Virus record (IMG/VR): IMGVR_UViG_3300036846_000743
Location: 62,001 to 126,000 of that record
Length of the DNA: 64,000 nucleotides
Origin: a virus
Direction: 5' to 3' (one strand)
Below the pieces are notes generated by a model. It was not told the DNA's origin and did no database searches. It saw nothing but the letters and a program-made list of their open reading frames with translations. The translations under genes and the position numbers were made by a program. Shown in pieces: positions 50,216 to 64,000 of the stretch (positions are counted from its first letter, which is position 1; the number at the start of each line of letters is the position of its first letter).

Positions 50216-52807
50216 CTAGTCGTTGGTATCGCTCTTGAAGTCGGTCCGCTGCATGGCCGCCTCGGGATCAGCCTCGACCGTCTTCTGCTTCAGATCCAGT
50301 ACCAGGTCACCCATGTCCTCGAACGAGTTTCTGAGCATGTCCTCCAGCTCGGGCACGTGGCTCTTGCCGTACCGTTCTTCGAATGCCTCACGGTGCCAGT
50401 AGAGCTGGAACAAGATCCGGCCGATCCGGTCCATGCCCTTCATGAGATCGCCCAGGTAACGATCCGTGAGCTGGTCGTCCCGGGTGGTCTTCAGGAGGCT
50501 CCCCAGCATGGACGTATCGAAGATCTCGCGCTGGCCAGTGGCGGCTGCTTCAGTTGCGGCCTGGGCCGCGCCGGGGTCCGGGCTGGCGGAATTGTTATTA
50601 CGCCATGGCGGATCGGGGTCCAGGTTCGTGTTGGGCCGCTGTAGCTCCCGATTGGCCGGGTCGGGAAACATGCCATCGACCGGGATGGACTCCGACTGCG
50701 GGTCCTGCGACGGGTAGTCGGGGTTCATGAAGTTGCCCGAGCTGTAAGTAGGGTCCGGAATGGCCGGCGCGGTCGGTCCCTCGTCGGTCATGTATGGCCC
50801 CCTGGCCTGCTTGACCCAGGGGGCATACTCGACCCGGAATTCCAGCGCAGGTCCGGGCTTCTTGAAGCGGTTCTCCTCGGCCATCTTGAGCATGTTCCGG
50901 GCGACGCCTTCGGTGAAGCCGTGATCACGCACCAGATGCACGATCGCCTGCTTCTCGGTCATGGATCGCCTGCCGTTGACCGCAGCCCGGCTGCCGTCGA
51001 AAGCAATTGCGATGCGATGATGCGGGATCGTCGAGCCGACCTTGTCGCGCCACATGCCCATCTCGATGCTCATGACGTGGGCCGTGCTGACCGGCGGCGT
51101 CTTGCTCTCACCCTTGCCGCCGGTCAGGCTCTTGATCGGCCGGGTGACCTTGGTCAGGTCCTCCTCGGGCACGTCCCACTGATCATCGTCATAGTCGGCT
51201 TTCTCGACCGTGAAGAGCTTGGAGCCCTTGGGCATGAACAGATCACCCATGCGGCTTCGTACTTCAGAACCAGTCGGAGCGCCGAGATGAATTCGTTCGC
51301 CGTCGTTCCAGCGATCGTAGAAGTCAACGGGATCAGAAAGCCTTGACTTGTAGTACGACCACAGCGTGATGCCTCTATGCGATGCTGGCCGTGGTCGGGC
51401 CGCGAACATATCGAACCGGACGTTCAACATCTTGTAGCCTTCGTTGCTGCCAACGCTCCCCTCGACGATGAATGGCAGCGTACCGTCGGGCCGGCCCGGC
51501 CCGACGACGATGTACTGGCCGTCGCTGTCACCAGTCAGTGTGTCAGCATCCGGCAGGCTCTCAACCCAGTTCTTCCAGTCTTCGTCGGAGTACTGCTTCG
51601 CCGCCCAGAGATAGGACGCGTGGACATTGATCCAGCCCTTGGGCTCACCTTCGACTCGTGCCACTGTAGCGAAGACCTTGCGGCCGTCAGGCCCATGCGG
51701 CCCGATGATCACCAGCATCTTCTCGAGCACGTCAGGCTTGACCAGGATGTCGTAGAGCCCGGTCGTGTCAGGGTTGACCATGGCCTGCCGCATCTGGACC
51801 TTGTAGGCGACGGACTTGTCCGCGACCTCGCGCTGGTCCTTGATCAGCATGCCGTTTTCAAGCAGGTTCTCGGTATCGGGCACGGTCAAGGTCTTGGGGA
51901 GCTTCGAGAGCGCGTTCGGGTTGTAAGTGTAGACCTGGAGTGATCCCTTCTTGATCGGATGCTCTGGACCAACATCGCCCAGCACGGAATCACCGCGTGC
52001 CCATCCCGGCAGCGGACGGTACGGCGGTACGTCGAGCCCGGACAGGACCGACACCGCTGCGGCAGTTTTCTCACGCTTGAGATCAGCCAGCAAGTCCTGG
52101 ATCAGCTTCAGGTCGTAAAACTGATCGAGACCGCGGGCGATCCCCGGATATGTCTGAGCGTACTTGAGCAGTGCGCGAACAGTCTTGATACCGCCTTCCT
52201 TGAGCAGCGTGGGCAGGGTGCGCACGTCCTTGTAGCGGGGATCGGTGTAAGGGTTCGTGGTCGCGGCGTAGGCCAGGGCCGGCAATCCCTGCTGGAGCCA
52301 GCCGGGCATGGCCGAGGCGAACTTGCTTGGCGAGTGCACGATGCGGCTTAACGTGGGCGCCCGCACGCCGATACGCCGTAGGTCCTTGTGCACGCCTTCG
52401 CCCAGGGAGAGCGGCTTCTTCTTGAGCAGATAGTTGATCCAGTTCTCTTTCAAGGGCACGAACTGGTCATCGTTCTTAATGTAGAGTAGCTCGTTCCCTT
52501 TCAGGTCTCCGTCGATGAAGAAGACGGGGGCATACAGGATCTGGGAACCAACCTTGAAGCCACGCACGCCGACGGCCTTTGAATTGTCTTCATTGCGGTC
52601 GAGCAGCTGGAAGCCGACTTCGTAGTCGAGCAGCCCGGGCGCTTTGTCCTTGAGATAAGCATGAGCCAGATTCGCAAGCGCTTGTTCATACGGTTGGTCT
52701 TGACCATCGCCACCAAGCTCCGCGTGTTTGACAATGTGACTCTGAACTGCTGCTCGCCAGCGGGCTACTTCACTCCGTCCCCGTTGGCGATCAATGATCG
52801 TGGGCAT
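50216..52807 (-). CDS. Large structural protein of head module (863 aa)
   Basis: 863 residues, ATG 52807 with AGGAGG about 9 bases upstream. The N-terminal domain (about 50-170) includes YEVGFQLLDRNEDNSKAVG, VFFIDGDLKGNELLYIKNDD and FVPLKENWINYLLKKKPLSL. The middle is mixed alpha/beta with a second conserved-looking core (VKPDVLEKMLVIIGPHGPDG). The C-terminal 190 residues are Pro/Asn-rich then helical, ending acidic. The size would fit a portal, but I do not see a portal clip/stem pattern and do not assign one. A virion-associated role is inferred from its neighbours. Confidence 0.55.
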   Translation of the reverse strand: MPTIIDRQRGRSEVARWRAAVQSHIVKHAELGGDGQDQPYEQALANLAHAYLKDKAPGLLDYEVGFQLLDRNEDNSKAVGVRGFKVGSQILYAPVFFIDGDLKGNELLYIKNDDQFVPLKENWINYLLKKKPLSLGEGVHKDLRRIGVRAPTLSRIVHSPSKFASAMPGWLQQGLPALAYAATTNPYTDPRYKDVRTLPTLLKEGGIKTVRALLKYAQTYPGIARGLDQFYDLKLIQDLLADLKREKTAAAVSVLSGLDVPPYRPLPGWARGDSVLGDVGPEHPIKKGSLQVYTYNPNALSKLPKTLTVPDTENLLENGMLIKDQREVADKSVAYKVQMRQAMVNPDTTGLYDILVKPDVLEKMLVIIGPHGPDGRKVFATVARVEGEPKGWINVHASYLWAAKQYSDEDWKNWVESLPDADTLTGDSDGQYIVVGPGRPDGTLPFIVEGSVGSNEGYKMLNVRFDMFAARPRPASHRGITLWSYYKSRLSDPVDFYDRWNDGERIHLGAPTGSEVRSRMGDLFMPKGSKLFTVEKADYDDDQWDVPEEDLTKVTRPIKSLTGGKGESKTPPVSTAHVMSIEMGMWRDKVGSTIPHHRIAIAFDGSRAAVNGRRSMTEKQAIVHLVRDHGFTEGVARNMLKMAEENRFKKPGPALEFRVEYAPWVKQARGPYMTDEGPTAPAIPDPTYSSGNFMNPDYPSQDPQSESIPVDGMFPDPANRELQRPNTNLDPDPPWRNNNSASPDPGAAQAATEAAATGQREIFDTSMLGSLLKTTRDDQLTDRYLGDLMKGMDRIGRILFQLYWHREAFEERYGKSHVPELEDMLRNSFEDMGDLVLDLKQKTVEADPEAAMQRTDFKSDTND

Positions 52808-53448
52808 TGAGGAGCCTCCTTGCTCAATTGGTGAGGACAGGTCCCGAGCAAATGGATTGCGATGTTGCAGTTGGAACAGAGAACCCGGTAACCGGGCGGA
52901 CAGCCATTCCTGTGCAGCCAGTGATAAAAGTTCTGCCCGCCGTACTTGCCAAGCGCCTTGCGTTCGGCCCTCCCGCCGCCATCAATATGGTCGATCTCCA
53001 GGAACACTGGCTCCGTCTCGTCGCAGCAAGCGCAACGGTACCCGCCGTACGCCGCAAAGACCTCGTCTCGCATCTTCTGTCGCCGCGCTTTCGCGTTGGC
53101 GAGACAGGCCGAACATTCCGCGGTCGTATTGCTGTGCGGATTGTGACATGTAACACAGAACCCGGAAGCGACCAACGCCGCCTTCTTTGCTCGCCGCTTG
53201 CACTGACAGGAAGAACAATATCTGTCCCTGGCATAGGCATAACGGCGCGAACCATTTTCGTCGCGATCCCTGTGAATGACCACCGCGCCGCCGACGGCTG
53301 GATGCGTCTTGCAGCCGACGCAGATACCGGCGGCAACCAGCCGATCGTACCTCTCCCTCTCGCGTTCGATGCATCCATTACATTGGACCCTGCCGGGAAA
53401 AACTGGCCAGCGCTTGCACCGAATACACACGATCCTACGATGTTTCAT
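52765..53448 (-). CDS. HNH endonuclease with zinc-ribbon array
   Basis: 227 residues from ATG 53448 (AAGGGG 9 bases upstream). The N-terminal 120 residues contain a series of CxxC pairs (CIRCKR, CNGC, CVGC, CSSC, CVTC, CSAC), probably stacked zinc ribbons that bind DNA. The HNH core follows: CACCDETEPVFLEIDHIDGG, then NFYHWLHRNGCPPGYRVLCSN and CNIAIHLLG. The DH pair and the terminal N are retained. Its 3' end overlaps the start of the 863-residue gene by 43 bp, which is typical of a freshly inserted homing gene. Confidence 0.85.
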   Translation of the reverse strand: MKHRRIVCIRCKRWPVFPGRVQCNGCIERERERYDRLVAAGICVGCKTHPAVGGAVVIHRDRDENGSRRYAYARDRYCSSCQCKRRAKKAALVASGFCVTCHNPHSNTTAECSACLANAKARRQKMRDEVFAAYGGYRCACCDETEPVFLEIDHIDGGGRAERKALGKYGGQNFYHWLHRNGCPPGYRVLCSNCNIAIHLLGTCPHQLSKEAPQCPRSLIANGDGVK

Positions 53449-53479
53449 GATGGTGGCCCCTTGCACGGGTCATCGTCAC

Positions 53480-54388: not shown

Positions 54389-56392
54389 TCAACTGCCGCC
54401 ACGCCAGGTAGCAGCGCCTCCGTGGACCGGCATTTTGAGTCGGTCCACTGATGCATCATGACCATCCAGGTCGTCGTTGTCGACATCCCAGGATCCGTCG
54501 TCAGGATCCCAACCCTTGGTCAGGCCCTGCCGCCCGAAGTGAGTGCGCTCGGCCAGCGCGGGCACGTAGCTCGTACCGGCAACGTCACTGGTAGCGCCCC
54601 GATGCGCCGCCTGCAACGTGGCCTTCTCAAGGCCGGACCCCAGATGCCGGGTCATGAAGTCGGGATCATGCTGGAGGTTGTACATGCCCCGGACCATCAT
54701 GGGTTCGAAGGGCGGCGGCTCGTCATGGACTTCCAGATTGTTCACTCCGAACTCCCTGAGTTCGGGAAGCATCCCCTGGCGGACCTTGGTGCCTATGGTG
54801 TGATGCAGGACCGGACGCTCGAGATACTTGCCCACAGCCGATGGCAGCTCGACCACACGGGACCCTTCCCGGGGACGCCAGTTGTTCTCGACGTGTGAGT
54901 ACGGCACCACGTCATCCTCCACGTGATCACCGAATTCGTCCGTGACCCGAACGTGATCGATCAGGCCGCGGGCCAGCAACTCGACATTGCGCCGGTGGCT
55001 GCTCATGCCCGAGTTACGATAGGCGTCTCCGAATGCCCCGACGAAATACCGGCGGCCCTCGCCAATGCCTTTGTGCCGAACGACTTCGGCAGGGTTGGGT
55101 ATCCCGTCCGAGAGCACGTCGCCAGCCTCGACACTATCGCCGATCTCGACCTTCGGGTCCATACCGGCGGGGACGTAGTGCTGCTCGGATCCGACCATGA
55201 CGTACTTGCCGCCCTGGGGAGCGTCAGTGATCGCCGAGACCTTGCCGTCGAGCTGAGCATGCGTGGCCCCGCCCTTGAAGGTCTTGGGCACCTGAATTAA
55301 CTGGTTGATATGGGCAAACCCAGAGACGGCTTTGTCGGCCCCGGCGACGCCGCCGGTATGCCGGGCCGAAAGCTGGCCCTGGGAGAGCTTCTCCGAAACG
55401 GCCTGCGCAGCAGCCAGGCCCACGTAGTCGCCCAGCGGGGGTAAACCGCCCCGCTCCCGGATGCCGACATCCCGGGCATAGACGCCTCCCTGGGGCGGCC
55501 CGCCAATCATGGGCGATCGGACCAGGATACGACCATGCCCCTGAGCCTGGAGGTCCTTGAGGACCTTGGGCGTCAGGGTCGTATTTCGCTTGTAGGGGCC
55601 GATGGGGCGAGCCAGCAGGGCACCTTCGTTATCGGGATCATCGGTCGCGACTGGCAGGCCGCGCACCGAGGTCGTATCGTCAGGGCCGTCGTGATCGGTC
55701 ACGATCAGACGGTGCACGACCTGGTTGAGCTGCTTGCTCAGGAAGCCAGCGTCCTGGGTGGCAAACTTGGTCGAGACAACGCCCTTGCGAGCACCGAAGG
55801 CACCGGCCCAGTACTCGGCAGGCGAAAGACCATGAGGGTACGAGTTCAGGACAGGGATCGGGATCGGCCGGTCGTGATGATCGACGTACATCAGGTCGGA
55901 GCCCATGAAAGACTTCAGGTTCGTCTTGCTGCCCCGCGCGCCTGAGAGCACCTGGCGGACAAACGGATTGTCAGCCGCCTTGGCCTCGTCGAAGATCGCG
56001 TTCTCCATGTGATCACGGTACTTGTCCACCGCGGCAACGATCGCCTGCTCTTTTTGGTCGTCAGTTGTCCGGGTGTTGGCCTGGATCATCTGGACTTCGC
56101 GGCGAATCTGTTCCTTGATCCGCTCGCCAGTCTTGCTGGGCCGCATGTCTTCCAGAGCGACCGAGAAGCCGCCGGTGGAATATGCTACATCACGACCAAC
56201 GTCAGAAAGCCGCTTGGCAACGTCGCGGTAGATCTCGGGGCGGCGCTCGGCGATGTCCTGGAAAAGTTGCCTGATACCTTTGGCGTCGAGAACGCGATTG
56301 TAGTCTTTGAGTTCAGGCGGTAAACTTTCGTTCACCATCAAATTCCCTAGAGTTGTCCGGAGCATGGCAACGTCACACCCCCGCTTCACCAT
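54389..56392 (-). CDS. RNA polymerase beta-prime subunit, C-terminal half
   Basis: 667 residues as annotated from ATG 56392; ATG 56365 or 56338 are alternatives, and the homologous segment already begins at LRTTLGNLMVNESLP (residues 11-25), matching the TTxGR-x-x-x-NE-x-LP segment of beta-prime. Residues 150-158 give SGARGSKTN. Residues 193-240 give the bridge helix (EYWAGAFGARKG, then FATQDAGFLSKQLNQV). A trigger-loop element is present (VGLAAAQAVSEKLSQGQLSA then RHTGG, about 326-350, with the catalytic-type His). A C-terminal GDVLSDGIPNPAEVVRHKG element matches the C-terminal beta-prime domain. It must combine with the fusion subunit encoded at 57827. It starts about 1.4 kb after that gene ends. 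Confidence 0.95.
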   Translation of the reverse strand: MVKRGCDVAMLRTTLGNLMVNESLPPELKDYNRVLDAKGIRQLFQDIAERRPEIYRDVAKRLSDVGRDVAYSTGGFSVALEDMRPSKTGERIKEQIRREVQMIQANTRTTDDQKEQAIVAAVDKYRDHMENAIFDEAKAADNPFVRQVLSGARGSKTNLKSFMGSDLMYVDHHDRPIPIPVLNSYPHGLSPAEYWAGAFGARKGVVSTKFATQDAGFLSKQLNQVVHRLIVTDHDGPDDTTSVRGLPVATDDPDNEGALLARPIGPYKRNTTLTPKVLKDLQAQGHGRILVRSPMIGGPPQGGVYARDVGIRERGGLPPLGDYVGLAAAQAVSEKLSQGQLSARHTGGVAGADKAVSGFAHINQLIQVPKTFKGGATHAQLDGKVSAITDAPQGGKYVMVGSEQHYVPAGMDPKVEIGDSVEAGDVLSDGIPNPAEVVRHKGIGEGRRYFVGAFGDAYRNSGMSSHRRNVELLARGLIDHVRVTDEFGDHVEDDVVPYSHVENNWRPREGSRVVELPSAVGKYLERPVLHHTIGTKVRQGMLPELREFGVNNLEVHDEPPPFEPMMVRGMYNLQHDPDFMTRHLGSGLEKATLQAAHRGATSDVAGTSYVPALAERTHFGRQGLTKGWDPDDGSWDVDNDDLDGHDASVDRLKMPVHGGAATWRGGS

Positions 56393-56401
56393 ACGCTTTC
56401 G

Positions 56402-56656
56402 TCAGACTTGCCAGTCGTAGTCCTTGACGCCGTTAGGCTTGATCGTGTCGATCTGGACCCGGTCGAGGCCGAGATTGGCCAGGATGCGGTTGAAGTGCGG
56501 GTCCCTGGCGTGCGCCGCCGTGACATGCGTTCCGTTGGTATCGCCCACCCATTCCACGACCACGGCCAGCGGGGTCCCGTCACCGCTCTTGACGACCACG
56601 CGGGTGGCCGGGATCACCAGCGGATTGCCCAGGCCGTCGAGGATCTCCAGGATCAT
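56402..56656 (-). CDS. Small protein inserted between beta-prime halves
   Basis: 84 residues, ATG 56656 overlapping the stop of the 267-residue gene (ATGA). Starts MILEILDGLGNPLVIPATRV; alpha/beta with a C-terminal KDYDWQV. It may be a small polymerase-associated factor or a virion protein; no domain recognised. Tight coupling to both neighbours makes it a real gene. Confidence 0.5.
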   Translation of the reverse strand: MILEILDGLGNPLVIPATRVVVKSGDGTPLAVVVEWVGDTNGTHVTAAHARDPHFNRILANLGLDRVQIDTIKPNGVKDYDWQV

Positions 56657-57456
56657 GCATCACCACTTTTGAGCGATCGGGACAGGGCAGCCAGGGCGCC
56701 CGCCTTGCTGCGAACCGTACGTAATTCATCGAGCGTGTACTCATTACCGACATCGAACGACTGGCGGCGATGATCCTCGCCGAGAATTCTGGAGATCCCT
56801 TGAACACCCGAACCCGCTCTGACCGAGGCCGCCTTGGCGCCGCCGCCAATGGGGCCCTGGTCGGGAGTCAGCGGCGGAATTGGGCCAGGACCAGCCCCGC
56901 CACCCGGAGGCGCACCGCCGCCCGGAGGCGCGCCGCCGCCCGGAGGCATACCGCCTGGTCCCGGCATGGTGGTACCACCACCGCCAGGTGCTGCCTGCTC
57001 CGCCTGTGCCTGTTGCTGCATCATCGGATCAGGCGGCGGACCGACCACGATCGATGGCGGCACCTGGACGTTCAGGGCCTCGCAGACCTTCACGAGCAGG
57101 AACTGGATCGTCCAGAGCTTGGTGTCCAGTAATTGCTGCTCGGCCTTCTTGCCGCCACCCTTGCCAGCAGGCCCGCCGGCCATGCCGCCGGCGCCTTGAG
57201 CTGCCTGGGTGATCTGGGCCAGCGTCGCCGGATCGAGCGGTCCTGGAGGCGGAGCTGGTGCTCCACCCATAGCACCGCCCCCGCCGGCCATCGCGGCTGG
57301 ATCCGGCATGGGCGGCGGAGCGCCGCCAGCCATTGCGCCCGGATCAGGGGGCTGCGCGACCTTCTCGAACTCGTTGTTGTCCAGTACGTCGTTGTCGACC
57401 CGCCATCGTGCTACTGCCCGCAGGTGTGGATTGATGAGCGGAAGTGTCGCTGACAT
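56653..57456 (-). CDS. Pro/Gly-rich protein inserted between beta-prime halves
   Basis: 267 residues, ATG 57456 with AGGGACGG upstream. Starts MSATLPLINPHLRAVARWRV. A Pro/Gly-rich stretch (about 35-95) precedes a helical core (KLWTIQFLLVKVCEALNVQV), then a second Pro/Gly-rich run and a charged helical C-terminus (TLDELRTVRSKAGALAALSR). Alternating disorder and helix suggests a virion or scaffold-type protein. It is not related to RNA polymerase by any motif I can see. Confidence 0.5.
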   Translation of the reverse strand: MSATLPLINPHLRAVARWRVDNDVLDNNEFEKVAQPPDPGAMAGGAPPPMPDPAAMAGGGGAMGGAPAPPPGPLDPATLAQITQAAQGAGGMAGGPAGKGGGKKAEQQLLDTKLWTIQFLLVKVCEALNVQVPPSIVVGPPPDPMMQQQAQAEQAAPGGGGTTMPGPGGMPPGGGAPPGGGAPPGGGAGPGPIPPLTPDQGPIGGGAKAASVRAGSGVQGISRILGEDHRRQSFDVGNEYTLDELRTVRSKAGALAALSRSLKSGDA

Positions 57457-57550
57457 GGTTCACCGTCCCTGATGAGTGGGTTCCCGGTCCCTGAGTCGAC
57501 AGCCGGCTTCACGCCGTCATCTTAACGCGAGTCAGCCTTCCCGAGCAACG

Positions 57551-57572
57551 CAGCGGCTAAAGTTCGCCGCTG
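57551..57572. other. 7-bp hairpin in polymerase-locus gap
   Basis: CAGCGGC and GCCGCTG flank an 8-base loop. It lies in the 370-bp non-coding stretch on the minus strand between 57457 and 57826. No U-run follows. Confidence 0.45.
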
Positions 57573-57579
57573 TTCCCGT

Positions 57580-57610
57580 CATATACCAATGCAAGACGCC
57601 TGGTTGTCAG
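57580..57610 (-). promoter_or_regulatory. Weak candidate minus-strand promoter
   Basis: On the minus strand CTGACA (57610-57605) and an extended -10 TTGGTATATG (TATATG at 57585-57580) are separated by 19 bases. It would drive the genes from 57456 downward. The sequence specificity of the phage polymerase is unknown, so this is only a sigma-70-style resemblance. Confidence 0.25.
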
Positions 57611-57648
57611 GCATCCCGATCTGTCCATCACGATGAAAGGGTTTTCTG

Positions 57649-57747
57649 ATGGGAACTGTTCTGTTCTGGCTCTTCGTGCTCTTTTGTCTTGCAGCCGCAG
57701 GACGTAGCGCTTGCAGCTGTACCAATCACTATCACTACCGGAGGTGA
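57649..57747 (+). CDS. Possible 32-residue membrane peptide, plus strand
   Basis: ATG at 57649 with AAAGGG upstream encodes MGTVLFWLFVLFCLAAAGRS followed by ACSCTNHYHYRR, then TGA. Residues 3-18 form one hydrophobic segment; the short tail has two Cys and two His and ends in Arg. It is the only credible plus-strand ORF in the window and is followed at once by two hairpins and a T-rich tract. It could be a membrane micro-protein or a chance ORF. Confidence 0.4.
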   Translation: MGTVLFWLFVLFCLAAAGRSACSCTNHYHYRR

Positions 57748-57756
57748 TCGACCCGC

Positions 57757-57822
57757 CGGAAAGCTAACCCACCCTAGCTTTCCGATGGGTCGGAAGACCC
57801 GTCGGACTGTCTTTTCTTTTTA
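57757..57822 (+). terminator. Tandem overlapping hairpins with T-rich tract (plus strand)
   Basis: Hairpin 1 is CGGAAAGCTA / TAGCTTTCCG (57757-57784, perfect 10-bp stem). Hairpin 2 is CCGATGGGTC, a GGAA tetraloop and GACCCGTCGG (57782-57805, 10-bp stem with one G-T pair), followed by CTTTTCTTTTT. The two stems share three bases and cannot both form fully, so the pair could act as terminator/anti-terminator. The T-run gives plus-strand polarity. Confidence 0.65.
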
Positions 57823-57826
57823 GCTA

Positions 57827-59815
57827 TCAGCGATCCATAACGATCTCGACGGGCTGATCTGCGCTAATATCACCCCGCCGGTAAGCCGCCAGGGCATCGG
57901 CCTTGGTAGCGAAAGTCCGCGGTCGCTTACCGGACCGTCCGGCCGTGGCCGCGTAGAGCCCGGCGGCGTATTCGCGGCTCGGAAGTTGATGCGCTTTGAA
58001 AGATGCTGCCGCAAGCAGGTTCCGGCTGGGAAGCATCTTCTCATAAGCGTCCCTGACCGCTTCCTTGGTAACCGGGACGTGGTACTGCATGGCGTCGCCA
58101 TCGAAGTCAGCGCCGAAGCCGGTGACGATCATGGGCGACACGTGCAGGGTCTCGCCCTGCTCGAGCCTCGGGCGGAAAGCCATGATCCCGTACCGGTGCA
58201 GGACTGGTGCTCTGTTGATGATCACCGGCCGGGAGTCCATCTCGTGCATCATCTCGGCGCGCGCCGACGGCTTACGCTCCTTGACCGCCCTGACGGCATC
58301 GATACGAGCCATGCCGCGCTGAACTAACCGGCGAACGATAAAAGGCTGGTAGACATCCCAGGCCCGGTTCTCCGGCAGGCCGACCTGATCCATGTCCAGA
58401 TCGGGATTGGGCACTATAGTCGCTCGACCCACCAGGTCCGTGGCGCTGGAGAGCAGCTTGCGCTGGACCATGCCCGTCTTGGGGCTATTCCCGAAAACCT
58501 GCTTGAGCACGCCCCGGACCCCTCGCTCCTGGTTCTTGGGATGAAGCGGATCACCGAGGCCAGTCACAGCCTTCAGGGTCTGGTAAGCAGCCAGCCGCTC
58601 CTCCGAGACGTCGTTGACCTTGGTCTTCATGTCCCGGAGGTTATCACGAGCATCGATCAGTTCTTTGTAAAGATAATTGGCATCAGCCACCATGGGCAGC
58701 TTGGAGCCAGCCATCGTCGAGACCGGCCGGAACATAGGGGGCAGCACAGGGGCTTTATCGAGCATCCAGTCCCTGGGATGCAGCCCGGCTTTCTGGGCAC
58801 CCTTCAGGTAGCCCAGCTTGCGCACGGCCGTATCACGGGCACCCTTACGTCCTGAGCGAATATCAGCTCGGGCCTGGTTGATGGCCTGATCGAGCTTGAT
58901 CCCATCCAGCGCCTTCGAGATCGCTTCGGAGCCCGTCCGGCCATTGAGTTCCTCCTTGCCGGACAGCACGGACAGGAACTTCTTCTCGGTCATGCCCAGC
59001 ATCCGCCGGATCGGTTCTTCCATCGCTGGGTTGGGTAAGGGCTCGGCCAGCTTAATATGCGCCCACCTGTTTCCCCCGTGACCACCGGTCAAGGCTTCGT
59101 CGAACAAGCCTCCTTTCAGGGGCTTCAGGCCCTCTTTCCAGTCGACCGTGTCGCCGTGGGTGATCTCGCGGTCGCCAGATAATTCATCGACATCTTTCCC
59201 TGAAAGAGCCATCGCATTCAGCCTGGTACCTTGGCGGACGACGTTAATTCCGCCGGCCTTGAGCATGTTGATGAACTTGTCATAGACCATGGGCGTCTTG
59301 GGCGTCGGCAGCGGCCGGCCGGACATGAACTGCGCCCAGAATTCGGGATGCTGCTGGCCCCGAACGGCACCAGCATCACGAAGCACTTCGGTAGCTCCAT
59401 GCGAGAGCAGCGCGTTCACGTCCATGAGTGATATTCTCTTGGAGCCGGCTTCGCCGCCACGTGCTGGGGCCCCCTCGGCCGTGTAGCCGCCGGTGCCGCG
59501 GCCCTGGCCCTTGGATTCGCTGGTGTGGTGAAGTTTCATGAACCAGCGGTTGCCCGTAAGTATGCGCGGGATATCGCGCCCGGCGACCGGATCCTTGATC
59601 GTCTCGGCCGATGTCATGCCATGCCGGGCCAGCTCCTGGATGGCCCATTCGTTGTAGTCCCGGCCGTCGAAGTCAGGAACACGATAGGGCCTGCCGGTCT
59701 TCTCGGCAATCTTGCCCAGAGCGGCCTCGATGCTCTGGGCCGGGTTCGTGCGGGTGATCACACCTAAAGGATTCAACAATACTTCATACGGCCGACCTTT
59801 CATATCTTGTGGCAT
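57827..59815 (-). CDS. RNA polymerase fusion: beta C-terminus + beta-prime N-terminus
   Basis: 662 residues from ATG 59815, with no visible ribosome binding site. Residues 1-190 are the beta C-terminus: GRPYEVLLNPLGVITRTNPA, then SKGQGRGTGGYTAEG and DVNALLSHGATEVLRDAGAV, ending YDKFINMLKAGGINV. From about 230 the beta-prime N-terminus follows: LKGGLFDEALTGG, RWAHIKLAEPLPNP, MLDKAPVLPPMFRPV, SATDLVGRATIVPNP, RPVIINRAPVLHRYG, and the catalytic loop GADFDGDAM with Asp570, 572 and 574 intact. The zinc-binding domain normally between GLF and GHIEL is absent. It ends just where beta-prime continues in the separate 54389 gene. The frame upstream of the ATG is open and codes GDKGVVSAIIPDHE, the natural continuation of beta. 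Confidence 0.95.
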   Translation of the reverse strand: MPQDMKGRPYEVLLNPLGVITRTNPAQSIEAALGKIAEKTGRPYRVPDFDGRDYNEWAIQELARHGMTSAETIKDPVAGRDIPRILTGNRWFMKLHHTSESKGQGRGTGGYTAEGAPARGGEAGSKRISLMDVNALLSHGATEVLRDAGAVRGQQHPEFWAQFMSGRPLPTPKTPMVYDKFINMLKAGGINVVRQGTRLNAMALSGKDVDELSGDREITHGDTVDWKEGLKPLKGGLFDEALTGGHGGNRWAHIKLAEPLPNPAMEEPIRRMLGMTEKKFLSVLSGKEELNGRTGSEAISKALDGIKLDQAINQARADIRSGRKGARDTAVRKLGYLKGAQKAGLHPRDWMLDKAPVLPPMFRPVSTMAGSKLPMVADANYLYKELIDARDNLRDMKTKVNDVSEERLAAYQTLKAVTGLGDPLHPKNQERGVRGVLKQVFGNSPKTGMVQRKLLSSATDLVGRATIVPNPDLDMDQVGLPENRAWDVYQPFIVRRLVQRGMARIDAVRAVKERKPSARAEMMHEMDSRPVIINRAPVLHRYGIMAFRPRLEQGETLHVSPMIVTGFGADFDGDAMQYHVPVTKEAVRDAYEKMLPSRNLLAAASFKAHQLPSREYAAGLYAATAGRSGKRPRTFATKADALAAYRRGDISADQPVEIVMDR

Positions 59816-59858
59816 CTCATGATCAGGAATGATTGCGGAAACTACGCCTTTATCGCCT

Positions 59859-62800
59859 TCAACCGTACCGGCCGCTGTTCAGCGACCAGTACGTTTTGTC
59901 CTCTCTTTTGCAGTAGACGATATGGTTGGGGACTGTGACGCAGTAAACGTCACCCGAATAGTCGACCATCCTTTCTTCGTTCGCCTCGTAGATCCCGATC
60001 CGGCCATGTTTGAACCAAGGACGCAAATGCTTCCGATTGACACGACCCCGCCAATGCGGCTGTTTCTGCCAGTTATCCGTCCGCTCCGTCCGTTTGAGCG
60101 TCACGGCCCAGCCTAGTTTCAAGCAAATGATCTGGATATCGACAGCTAGCTGTTCAGACGAAGAACCGTATTCCCATGCATCGCCTTGATGACCATCGCC
60201 GGCCATGTAAGCGTCAAAGAAAATGCGGAGCTGCCGCGGGCACAACTCCTGAACGTAGTCTGGAATGTACTTGGTATAGCTATCGCCTAACAGCGCCAGA
60301 ACCCCGTAGAGCCATTTGCTGGTAATCTCGAACCGCTGATCGTCGCTATTGTAGGTGAAACGAATCCCTAGCCGAACTAGGCTATCGTAGATCGCTTGCC
60401 AGTGCGGTGAGTTACGGAACTGGGCAATCTTCACCTTGAAGCTACCATTGGCCTTATTGTAGTCGCACCAACCTTCAGCCAAGTAATAGCCCAGAAACTC
60501 GAGCCAGTCGTCCATTCGGACCTGCTCATAATACTGCTCGCGCGATGTGTATTGCGCGTATGGCTCGAACTTGATCCATTCTTGCTCGATGCCAATCCAG
60601 CGGCAGTCTTTCTTGAAATTCCATTCGCCTTTCGACTCGTAAAATGCCTGTGCCGTGATCGGCTGATAGGACTTGCCTGGCCGTGCTACCCAGAGTCGGT
60701 GCTCGGGCGTGACCAGCATGTTGATGTGCTTGGTGTTCAGGTAGTACATCAATCCATCATGACGATACCGATGCAGATGAGTCGGCTGCTGATATTCCAG
60801 CGCATCCGTCTCAGGGTTGAGAGTTGTCAGCTCGTCATCGGTCACAACCTCCGCAACCGGTTTCCAACCCCGACGGGTCAGAAGCCAGGTCGCCGGGTCG
60901 TAGCACATCTTGTCGCCGACTTCCATGGGGTTCAGGCTCTTGACCGAGACCACGATACCCTTGGGCGTCTTCTCGACGTCGGTAACTTCGCCAGGTGCAT
61001 GATGGTTCCAGGTCTCAGAGTGATCGGCCCACGCCGCTTGCCGGCCCCGGGAGAGCGACCCGTGGGTCCGCTCGCGTTCCTTGACGGCCAGGATCAGCGG
61101 ATCGCCGTGATTGACGATCGTGCCCGGCCTGACCACGCCCTCGTCGTCAATGGTATCAAGCATCTTGCGGTCGAATACACCTGGAAAAGTCGCGATGTGG
61201 GCGCTCTTGCCCGGCTTGACCTCGCCGTCGTGCTCGAGCGAGTGCTGATACATGTGCTCCGAGGAGAACCGCTTGGCCATCGCCTCGCTGATGACGATCG
61301 CGTCCTCGAAGTTCAGGCCGCGGAAGGGGATGTAGGCCGTGCGGGCGTTCTGACCCAGGGCCGATACACCGTGTTCGTCGGTGTAGTTGGACCTGGCCAG
61401 CAGGCTGCCGGCAGCGATCCGGTCGCCAGGCTTGACTACCGGAGTCTGGTGAATATAGGTTTTCCGGTTGTAAGGATAGTTCACGTAAAGCTCGTGCTCG
61501 CGGGGCTTGCCGTCGTCGCCCTGGACGGTGATCTTGCCGTCCTCCACCCTGGTGACGATACCGGGAGCGTCACTGTGCATGGCGCCGAAATGCCGGCCAT
61601 AGCGGGACTCGTAACTGTCACCCTGGCTCCCCCTGACGCCGGCCTGCACCAGCGGGGCCTGGGGATCCTTCACCGGCAGGGCCTGGGTGATCATGCGGCC
61701 GGCCATGACCTCACGCTGCCCCTTGACGGTCGACTTCATCGGCACCAGGTTCGAGATCGAGCTGAAGGCATCGTCCATGTTGGGCAGCTCGTACTGGACC
61801 TGGTTCCGCGGCACGTCGCGGGTCTTGCCGCCGGCCAGCGCCGAGACGTAGGGCTTGACCGTCTGTAGCTCGCCCGGAAAGGCAATCACCGAGTCGGTCA
61901 GGTCCTGCGCGCTGCGGTGTTCGAGCCGGCCAGTACGCACGTTGCGAAACGGCGCGTAGAGCCGGCCGTCGGCCCCCTTGAATGTCCCCTGGGCCACACG
62001 GCCGTCGACACCGGCATGAAAGCTCTCCGGGGTGACCAGGGGATCGATCAGGCCGAAGTGCGACGGCTGAACGTTGCGAGCTTCGGCGGGGATTGCATCA
62101 AGCGAAGGAATCCCTCCAGTGCCCAGCCGGCTGACCCGGGCCTGCTGGTCGAAGATCATGGCCGGGTTAATTCCCTCGGTGGGCTGGCCCAGGCCGCTGG
62201 ACTGGATAGCGGCGTTGATATTCCGGGTCAGTAACTCGGCCGGGATGTGCTTGAGGCTCCCGGTCATGGACGCTTTCCAGAGGACCTTGCCCAGAAGCAT
62301 GCGGTCCTTGCCGACCCGCTCGGATAACAGATCTTCGGGACCCATGGCGTACATGTAGGCCAGGTGATCACGGTCATCGGGTTCTGCTTCTTGTTTGTTT
62401 ATCGCAGCCAGTTTCCTGGTGGTATCCAGCATCTGATCCAGCGAGACCTTGTCGTACGGCTTACCGAGGGTCCGCCTGGTGACCTCTGGGTCGAGCTTCA
62501 TGGCCTCGAACGCTTCGCGGACTTCCTGCTCCTGGGTCTTGGTCGGATCAGGTTTGCGAACCAACCGGCTATGCAGCTTACCGATGACCGATGGATCATC
62601 CTTGAGCATGTTGGGCTGGTAGAGATCACCCCAGGCTTCGCGAAGCTGCTTGTCGCTGGCCCCCATGGCATGGAGCAAGGACGTCAAGGGCATCTTGGAC
62701 TGACCGACTTTGAGGCGGAACACGCCGGTCTCGGGCTCCATGAAGATCCGGTGCGCGGCACCCTGGCCGGGCATGACGTTCACATGGGCTTCGAGTTCGC

Positions 62801-63329
62801 CGTTGGCCTGGCGGCGAGTAAAGACGCCGGGCCGGAGCCTGAGCTGGTGAGCCAGCGTATATTCGGACCCATTCTGGATAAAAGTCCCGTGATCGGTCAG
62901 GTACGGGATCGTAGCCACGGTGGATCGTTTCTGATCGATGACCGCGCCGGTCGCGTTATCACGCAGCGTCCAGGTGCCCCGGAGCCGGGCCCCCAGACTG
63001 CGGCCTCCCAGGATGGCCTTCTTCCAGTCGGCCTTGCCGTACCGCTGCGCGCCTTCATAGCCGACGTCGTCAAGGGTCAGGGTGTGTCGCTGGTTCGAGA
63101 CCGGCGGGATCTTGCCAGCTGCCTCCTTGACGCGATCGAAGATCCGGCTCCGGATCGCGGCCGCATCGCCAAAGGCACGAAGGCCGGCCGGAGCGTGTGC
63201 CGGCAAGGCGGGTGATCGCTCAACACCCTGTTCCTTGTGCGTGCCGTCGTTGATCCTGCCGTCGCCGTCACCGTCTCGCGGGACGCTGGACAGCGATCCC
63301 AGGGCCGACTCTGCCAGAACGCTAGGCAC
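59859..63329 (-). CDS. RNA polymerase beta subunit (N-terminal part) with intein
   Basis: 1156 residues from GTG 63329, chosen because AGGAGGG lies just upstream and right after the previous TAA; a longer frame to 63458 overlaps the preceding gene. Conserved beta elements in order: NGSEYTLAHQLRLRPGVF (about 153-170), RDVPRNQVQYELPNMDDAFS (about 505), GQNARTAYIPFRGLNFEDAI (about 660-690) and GDKM (805-808). An intein (809-1151) follows GDKM, then SGRYG and a stop. The normal beta sequence after GDKM would run SGRYG...GDKGVVS, which is found in another frame of the next gene. Near residues 19-30, DGDGDGRINDGT looks like a calcium-binding loop. Core catalytic subunit of a phage RNA polymerase. 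Confidence 0.95.
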   Translation of the reverse strand: MPSVLAESALGSLSSVPRDGDGDGRINDGTHKEQGVERSPALPAHAPAGLRAFGDAAAIRSRIFDRVKEAAGKIPPVSNQRHTLTLDDVGYEGAQRYGKADWKKAILGGRSLGARLRGTWTLRDNATGAVIDQKRSTVATIPYLTDHGTFIQNGSEYTLAHQLRLRPGVFTRRQANGELEAHVNVMPGQGAAHRIFMEPETGVFRLKVGQSKMPLTSLLHAMGASDKQLREAWGDLYQPNMLKDDPSVIGKLHSRLVRKPDPTKTQEQEVREAFEAMKLDPEVTRRTLGKPYDKVSLDQMLDTTRKLAAINKQEAEPDDRDHLAYMYAMGPEDLLSERVGKDRMLLGKVLWKASMTGSLKHIPAELLTRNINAAIQSSGLGQPTEGINPAMIFDQQARVSRLGTGGIPSLDAIPAEARNVQPSHFGLIDPLVTPESFHAGVDGRVAQGTFKGADGRLYAPFRNVRTGRLEHRSAQDLTDSVIAFPGELQTVKPYVSALAGGKTRDVPRNQVQYELPNMDDAFSSISNLVPMKSTVKGQREVMAGRMITQALPVKDPQAPLVQAGVRGSQGDSYESRYGRHFGAMHSDAPGIVTRVEDGKITVQGDDGKPREHELYVNYPYNRKTYIHQTPVVKPGDRIAAGSLLARSNYTDEHGVSALGQNARTAYIPFRGLNFEDAIVISEAMAKRFSSEHMYQHSLEHDGEVKPGKSAHIATFPGVFDRKMLDTIDDEGVVRPGTIVNHGDPLILAVKERERTHGSLSRGRQAAWADHSETWNHHAPGEVTDVEKTPKGIVVSVKSLNPMEVGDKMCYDPATWLLTRRGWKPVAEVVTDDELTTLNPETDALEYQQPTHLHRYRHDGLMYYLNTKHINMLVTPEHRLWVARPGKSYQPITAQAFYESKGEWNFKKDCRWIGIEQEWIKFEPYAQYTSREQYYEQVRMDDWLEFLGYYLAEGWCDYNKANGSFKVKIAQFRNSPHWQAIYDSLVRLGIRFTYNSDDQRFEITSKWLYGVLALLGDSYTKYIPDYVQELCPRQLRIFFDAYMAGDGHQGDAWEYGSSSEQLAVDIQIICLKLGWAVTLKRTERTDNWQKQPHWRGRVNRKHLRPWFKHGRIGIYEANEERMVDYSGDVYCVTVPNHIVYCKREDKTYWSLNSGRYG
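59877..60905 (-). other. Intein with LAGLIDADG endonuclease in RNAP beta
   Basis: 343 residues, inserted between GDKM and SGRYG. Block A starts with Cys (CYDPATWLLTRRGWKPVAEV). Block B is LNTKHINMLVTPEHRLWV with the TxxH histidine. Two dodecapeptide motifs, LGYYLAEGW (intein 138-146) and FFDAYMAGDG (229-238), define a LAGLIDADG homing endonuclease. Block F is VYCVTVPNHIVY. The end is SLN with the splice-site Asn and +1 Ser. The penultimate residue is Leu rather than the usual His, which splicing-active inteins sometimes tolerate. Confidence 0.9.
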
Positions 63330-63339
63330 AGGGCCCTCC

Positions 63340-64000
63340 TTACTTGGGGTGCGGCTGTACCAGTTGCTGTCCAGCGACGCGGCCCAGCGATCCAGCCAGG
63401 CTGGGTAATTGCGGCGGGGACGGCTCTGCCGGCTTCTCGGGCTTCGCCGGCTTGCCATCGGTCGGCGTCATGAGCCGGTTCCAGACGGCCATCTGATTGG
63501 CCTTGATCCGGTTCAGGAATTGGTCGGCCGCCTGGCCGACACTGGCGTGCTTCTCTTTCTTCGCCGGCTCCTCGTCTGGTTCCTTCCTGGCCCCGAACGC
63601 ACGGTGCCAGATCGACGGCTTCGGCCGCATGATCGGTGTCGGCATCGGGATCGCCATGATCGGGCTCGGGGCCTGCTCGGCAATCTGGGCCTGCCGCCGC
63701 TTCACTGCCTCCTCGACGGCCTTGTCCTCGGCCGTTGATCTGGCCCAGTGATAACCACCCAGGCCGGCACCCAGCATGAGGCCGCCGCCCAGCGTCAGGG
63801 CACCACCCATAAGCGGACCGTACCAGCCTTCTGCCTGCTTCTCGTAGAGACTGGCCAGCACATCGAGCGAGCTGGGCTTCGGATCTGCCGAAGCCAGCTT
63901 GCGCCGGCCGGCCAGCGCACTCTCGTAGCCCTTGCGCGCCTCTTCCAGCTCACTCTCCTGCTCGGCCGTCCGGGTCTTGTCGAGCAGATAGTCAGTCAGC
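63340..64000 (-). CDS. Partial Gly-rich transmembrane protein (5' end beyond window)
   Basis: The frame is open to base 64000 with no start seen, so the N-terminus is missing; about 219 residues are visible. An upstream helical, charged segment (LDKTRTAEQESELEEARKGY, then KLASADPKPSSLDVLASLYE) precedes one glycine-rich hydrophobic stretch (GPLMGGALTLGGGLMLGAGL, about 24 residues), a helical K/E region and a Pro-rich C-terminus. Stop 63340, 10 bp before the beta start. Probably a virion-internal or membrane-associated protein like the 367-residue one at 46309. Confidence 0.55.
   Translation of the reverse strand, partial: LTDYLLDKTRTAEQESELEEARKGYESALAGRRKLASADPKPSSLDVLASLYEKQAEGWYGPLMGGALTLGGGLMLGAGLGGYHWARSTAEDKAVEEAVKRRQAQIAEQAPSPIMAIPMPTPIMRPKPSIWHRAFGARKEPDEEPAKKEKHASVGQAADQFLNRIKANQMAVWNRLMTPTDGKPAKPEKPAEPSPPQLPSLAGSLGRVAGQQLVQPHPK

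Follow-up and report, generated by a model that had tools for sequence, protein, structure and literature searches.

Gene organization of the RNA polymerase locus

The window, by which we mean the whole 64,000-nt stretch of DNA that was analysed, corresponds to positions 62001-126000 of a 226-kb virus record, and its minus strand carries three RNA polymerase open reading frames (ORFs) at 59859-63458, 57827-59815 and 54389-56392. These ORFs matched the Pfam families Rpb2_6 (7e-22 and 3e-11), Rpb1_2 (2e-23) and Rpb1_5 (1e-18), as well as beta-prime chains in the PDB (1.5e-159 and 1e-70), and contain the motifs NFEDA, GDKM, NPLGV and DFDGD. An earlier note on this DNA had described a complete beta/beta-prime core in a phage; the profile matches and motifs support that description, and NFEDA, GDKM and DFDGD are confirmed among the signature elements that it listed. 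The features of the locus are as follows.

60906-63458, minus strand: N-terminal extein of RNA polymerase beta, 851 codons from the listed ATG, ending in ...NPMEVGDKM; 77% identical to the relative L003 over its whole length
59877-60905, minus strand: intein of 343 aa (CYDPAT...TYWSLN, +1 Ser) with a LAGLIDADG homing endonuclease, between GDKM and SGRYG (Pfam, PDB profile, Foldseek)
59899-59909, minus strand: stretch rich in purines and resembling a Shine-Dalgarno sequence, AAAAGAGAGGA (AAAGGAGGGA in relatives), just 5′ of the hairpin (alignment)
59864-59893, minus strand: RNA hairpin CGUACUGGUCGCUGAACAGCGGCCGGUACG, formed by a 5′ arm in the intein and a 3′ arm in the extein whose last base is the first one of the GGU codon preceding the stop (z = -4.4; five of five lineages)
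59862-59876, minus strand: C-extein SGRYG of beta, with the proposed take-off codon GGU at 59864-59862 (sequence comparison)
59855-59861, minus strand: stop-bearing gap UGAAGGC, with the stop UGA at 59861-59859 and the proposed landing codon GGC at 59857-59855 (sequence comparison)
57827-59854, minus strand: C-terminus of beta (DKGVVS...NPLGV...) and N-terminus of beta-prime through DFDGD, in one chain (profile matches)
56653-57456, minus strand: Pro/Gly-rich ORF of 267 aa between the two beta-prime parts, partially similar to sequences in some relatives; searches against Pfam and PHROG gave no match
56402-56656, minus strand: ORF of 84 aa immediately upstream of the beta-prime C-terminal part, kept in many relatives
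54389-56392, minus strand: C-terminal part of beta-prime, whose beginning corresponds to about residue 570 of E. coli beta-prime, close to where the cyanobacterial subunit is split (Pfam, PDB matches)

The first ORF (1199 aa) had been read as beta only, so that the intein after GDKM and the stop and hairpin had been missed; it consists of beta up to GDKM, the 343-aa intein, SGRYG and then a stop codon. Upstream of the ATG of the second ORF its frame remains open, and the sequence there, EGDKGVVSAIIPDHE, continues beta. Apart from the intein, beta is interrupted only by this stop and a 1-nt frame change, without a gene boundary, and the break point that had been placed inside beta is not borne out: the chain is continuous except for the intein and a conserved stop-bearing gap. 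The junction of beta and beta-prime in one chain is real, the second ORF being the beta C-terminus running directly into beta-prime, and so is the separate gene for the beta-prime C-terminus. In 61 of 82 related contigs, a single match without interruption covers beta and the N-terminal part of beta-prime (beta-prime-N), and in three distant relatives (L068, L072 and L076) the whole of beta and beta-prime lies in a single ORF of 2038-2082 aa. Because many independent contigs share this gene order, an assembly error joining distant contigs, against which the earlier note had cautioned, is refuted.

Neither alpha nor omega had been seen at the locus, and profile models for both found none in the 226-kb record, which may be incomplete; the same models gave matches in 13-14 of 14 control genomes. 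A 301-aa frame in this record, outside the window, matches sigma-70 region 2 (G000:C1:20648-20791, minus strand), and its product is likely, to judge from this match, to be the initiation factor for the polymerase. Near the beta N-terminus (63250-63300, minus strand) we noted a DGDGDGRINDGT motif that resembles a calcium-binding loop. A 233-aa ORF near the polymerase genes (52765-53466) shows an HNH-like pattern (LEIDHIDGGG...LCSNCN), with no Pfam match at E<0.1.

Comparison with known RNA polymerases

How unusual is this arrangement? The fusion is real, but the split and fused layout, which had been regarded as unusual, is already present in Salmonella phage Arash (Gp206 and Gp216; OQ632216) and in about 80 IMG/VR contigs: as in the window, beta is fused to beta-prime-N in one chain, and the C-terminal part of beta-prime (beta-prime-C) is separate. 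The Arash chains, of which Gp206 has 1525 aa, are 33% and 26% identical to those of the window and, unlike them, have neither an intein nor a stop at GDKM. Both Gp206 and Gp216 are among the most abundant virion proteins of Arash (PMC10585845), and by analogy the polymerase of the window is probably also a virion polymerase. In polymerases of the phiKZ/AR9 type, beta-prime is split after the DPBB and alpha and omega are absent, as here; their beta, however, is divided between two genes without a beta/beta-prime fusion, whereas the window has beta and beta-prime-N in one chain (PMC7598289). The break in beta-prime had likewise been taken as unusual. It is real, but its position after the DPBB, at about E. 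coli residue 570 and beside the cyanobacterial split, was already known from cyanobacteria and is common to phiKZ-type phages (PMC7598289). The mReC phages are large tailed phages in which beta and beta-prime are detectably like the cellular subunits, as in this case, and the paper describing them makes no mention of inteins (PMC7481178). Comparable homing inteins, placed in strongly conserved active-site motifs of the second-largest subunit, have been described in fungal, algal and viral RPA2/RPB2/RPC2 (PMC1635734); in contrast to those, the present enzyme belongs to a phage, up to six inteins occur per chain, and a stop lies five codons after one of them. The polymerase layout itself adds a further member to a known kind; the valuable part of this locus is the intein-linked stop, for which the sequences make a strong case of recoding, probably by the mechanism proposed below.

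A homing intein at the GDKM motif

By sequence and structural model, the insert after GDKM is a complete intein. It matched Pfam LAGLIDADG_3 at 8e-4, narrowly missing the curated cut-off, and PDB inteins by profile (3e-5; 7qsu), and a Foldseek search with its model (pLDDT 67) retrieved the TliVMA, PhoVMA and PI-SceI inteins at 1e-12 to 1e-8, matches that indicate a Hint fold together with a LAGLIDADG domain. The insertion is in frame within a conserved motif and runs from C1 to N343 followed by Ser. Its flanks are contiguous in relatives (GDKMSGRYGDKG), and the 343 residues are absent from most of them. The intein looks active, is of the homing type and is predicted to splice itself out. A split intein at GDKM was considered and rejected, because the intein is complete.

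An intein of this kind is found at GDKM in five lineages, namely the window, L091, the L057 group (L057, L075 and L056), L082 and L093, and the five inteins are 56-66% identical; a second intein scan yielded no further lineage. A different intein, only 26% identical, occupies the same GDKM site in L066 (7888-8946) without a stop after it, and thus serves as a natural control.

A conserved stop codon behind the intein

In all five lineages, a stop codon lies five codons after the intein and immediately after the same glycine codon, which is GGY throughout. The junctions read as follows, with the glycine codon, the gap and the GAT of DKG separated by hyphens.

Window: GGT-TGAAGGC-GAT
L091: GGC-TAGGT-GAT
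L057, L075 and L056: GGC-TGAGGT-GAT
L082: GGC-TAACGAT-GAT
L093: GGT-TAACTAAGC-GAT

The stop is TGA in the window and the L057 group, TAG in L091, and TAA in L082 and L093. DKG resumes after 7 nt in the window, 6 in the L057 group, 5 in L091, 7 in L082 and 9 in L093, so that the frame changes over the gap are 0, 0, +1, +1 and +2 (frame 0 being that of L057 and L093); a single fixed frameshift is thereby excluded. GGY directly precedes GAT in three lineages (the window, L091 and L057); the codon in that position is GAT in L082 and AGC in L093, each one transition away from GGY. Because the inteins are only 56-66% identical, the stop must be old and not a sequencing error. The coding region of L091, which contains six inteins, stays open for about 3,360 codons, and the stop at the GDKM site is the only one before the end of the gene; the same is true of L093 with its five inteins. 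None of 32 other RNA polymerase insertions breaks the frame, and the four stops that were flagged lie in flanks that contain the GDKM site.

Is the sequence behind the gap translated? Over the 13 codons that begin with GAT and lead up to the first ATG, the lineages differ at 47, 14 and 73 first, second and third codon positions, respectively, figures that come from the only five lineages known and are not independent counts, and DKG[VI][VI] is kept. This third-position bias argues that DKGVVS... is translated. The lysines K1065 (in GDKM) and K1073 (in NKG) of E. coli beta are catalytic-site residues. In none of the five lineages does the DKG frame contain an ATG, GTG or TTG between stop and GAT. 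The protein-level conservation after the gap and the absence of a start codon before it together suggest that ribosomes most likely cross the stop. A change of the genetic code or a suppressor tRNA was rejected, because TGA is the main ordinary stop of this phage (82 of 122) and a search for tRNA genes found none. A group I or group II intron or a known RNA element was also rejected, there being no Rfam match at the locus at E<1.

A hairpin joins the intein to the extein

At the RNA level, the hairpin CGUACUGGUC...GGCCGGUACG links the last intein codons with codons of the extein through 12-13 bp; its 3′ end falls on the GGY that precedes the stop. The minimum free energy lies between -21 and -23 kcal/mol in the five lineages, compared with -3 to -12 kcal/mol at 23 other intein ends, and z is about -4.4 against shuffled sequences in the three lineages that were folded. 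Synonymous sites are identical in all five lineages in 7 of the 11 terminal codons but in only 9 of 112 codons elsewhere (p=4e-5). Covariation is weak: 11 of 12 pairs are invariant and one covaries, from G-C to A-U in two lineages through synonymous changes on both sides, a score that was reached in 51 of 500 shuffles and is not significant. Pattern scans of IMG/VR for the hairpin and stop without an intein found none in polymerase genes and one chance match in an unrelated gene (L090), and searching the genome contigs for the 5′ arm returned unrelated matches only.

How might ribosomes cross the stop?

We considered that the stop might be crossed by a programmed ribosome hop. On balance, and with moderate confidence, we favour a polymerase of fused beta/beta-prime-N and separate beta-prime-C, with an intein inserted between GDKM and SGRYGDKG, whose conserved stop would be passed in this way. 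The peptidyl-tRNA-Gly would occupy GGY while the stop is in the A site, let go of the mRNA and re-pair with the codon that immediately precedes GAU; help would come from the hairpin as it refolds behind the ribosome, and perhaps from the nascent intein tail. Such a hop over 5-9 nt would yield the native SGRYG-DKG junction, and the intein would then splice out. Where GGY precedes GAT, in three of the five lineages, the hop would give exactly SGRYG-DKG. We infer the crossing, the hop as its means and the splicing alike from the sequences.

The closest natural parallel is T4 gene 60, in which, as here, a stop immediately follows a glycine take-off codon, a stem-loop lies just 5′, coding resumes in another frame, and there is a link to a homing endonuclease (PMC5009743). 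In our case the stop is directly 3′ of the take-off codon and resumption, in any of the three frames, is deduced from codon periodicity. The gap of gene 60 is 50 nt, compared with 5-9 nt here, and the putative signal described here differs further in lying at the end of an intein and in having a matched landing codon in only three of five lineages: take-off and landing codons are GGY/GGY in the window, L091 and L057, GGC/GAT in L082 and GGT/AGC in L093. The non-GGY landing codons of L082 and L093 would be the weak point of the proposed hop. The 12-13 bp hairpin corresponds to the 5′ stem-loop but abuts the take-off codon, unlike the separate stem-loop of gene 60, and by analogy this may count against a hop. 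In the synthetic 'stop hops' of Weiss et al. (1987), a peptidyl-tRNA hops over a stop between matched codons, as proposed here (reviewed in PMC5009743); those were constructs, whereas the present case would be natural, conserved and assisted by a hairpin. The 2016 review states that natural in-frame stop-hops were not known (PMC5009743).

Several other explanations have to be weighed against the hop. Beta might be truly split, so that translation ends at SGRYG, splicing leaves a beta-N ending in SGRYG, and the beta-C/beta-prime-N chain arises by re-initiation just after the stop, with the purine-rich sequence used, the hairpin looped out and the start perhaps at a codon other than AUG or at the ATG 14 codons downstream. 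Such a split would accord with the conservation of a stop as such while the downstream frame drifts, with the Shine-Dalgarno-like stretch that precedes the hairpin and would be brought near the gap by its folding, and with the split beta chains of phiKZ-type phages (PMC7598289). We nevertheless consider it unlikely: the 13 codons between the gap and the ATG, including the conserved DKG lysine, are conserved at the protein level with no start codon before them, the ATG has no good Shine-Dalgarno sequence, and the break would lie inside the catalytic barrel. Readthrough or ordinary frameshifting, in which the stop is decoded or slipped past and two or three extra residues remain (SGRYG-xx-DKG), seems improbable. 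It would require a +1 shift in two lineages, a +2 (or -1) shift in one and readthrough in two, across three different stops; a classical slippery sequence is not evident, and the extra residues would adjoin an active-site lysine. In its favour, the 6-7 nt gaps would give two extra residues each in the products of the window, L082 and L057, and L057 and L093 are in frame 0.

Removal of the gap from the mRNA, whether through cleavage at the hairpin followed by ligation or through some intron-like process not yet described, would produce the exact product in any frame; the strong hairpin would mark the site, and RNA ligases are present in Arash virions (PMC10585845). Given the Rfam result above, a gap of only 5-9 nt and the finding of no RNA ligase in the 226-kb record, we regard such repair as very improbable. 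A sequencing error, a decayed gene or a changed genetic code is hardly credible. One extra base could account for the frame change in the window alone, but five independent metagenome lineages use all three stop codons between intact flanking ORFs, with normal stop usage and no tRNA genes found; assembly or sequencing error and a pseudogene were rejected on the strength of these lineages and ORFs.

Established cases of programmed bypassing are very few; if the proposed hop takes place, five phages would share a short one that is accompanied by a conserved hairpin. In such polymerases, gene callers will annotate a subunit split that does not exist.

Proposed spread and retention of the intein

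How might the stop have come to accompany the intein? Before the intein, the window is 88% identical to its sister L003, which lacks this intein, but identity falls to 69% over the 105 nt that follow the gap. The first 60 nt after the gap have a GC content of 42% versus 63%, and the 3′ flank of the window has diverged from the sisters L003 and L004. The contrast between this diverged, GC-poor 3′ flank and the 88% identical 5′ flank looks as if intein and stop had been co-converted, and fits homing with co-conversion of a 3′ flank that would have included the stop.

No copy of the stop was seen apart from the intein, an association that suggests a way for a selfish element to become indispensable. 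Because the 5′ arm of the hairpin and the nascent tail lie inside the intein, we hypothesize that the intein is hard to lose: its precise loss would leave a stop without its helper, which could not be crossed. We raise, as a tentative and rather doubtful extension, a natural hairpin-assisted stop-hop at the end of a homing intein, by which a mobile element would bring both the stop and the signal for crossing it, and the phage could not lose the intein without breaking the gene.

Other inteins and interruptions in related polymerases

The single beta/beta-prime coding regions of L091 (100-11090, six inteins) and L093 (2602-13026, five inteins) are possibly among the most intein-rich single genes known. 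A split (fractured) intein lies in the C-terminal part of beta in four other contigs (L061:8484-9000, L062 at the same positions, L063:9379-10192 and L064:6674-9000), its halves reading KGGEMG-C...DDLMEC, followed by a stop, and ...VLVSN-SKRISMLDVNALLSHG; in L063 and L064, another ORF lies between them. In Vibrio phage D181 (L084:5643-11157), small ORFs and a homing endonuclease gene break into beta at about residue 575, an arrangement that represents either an intron or a true split.
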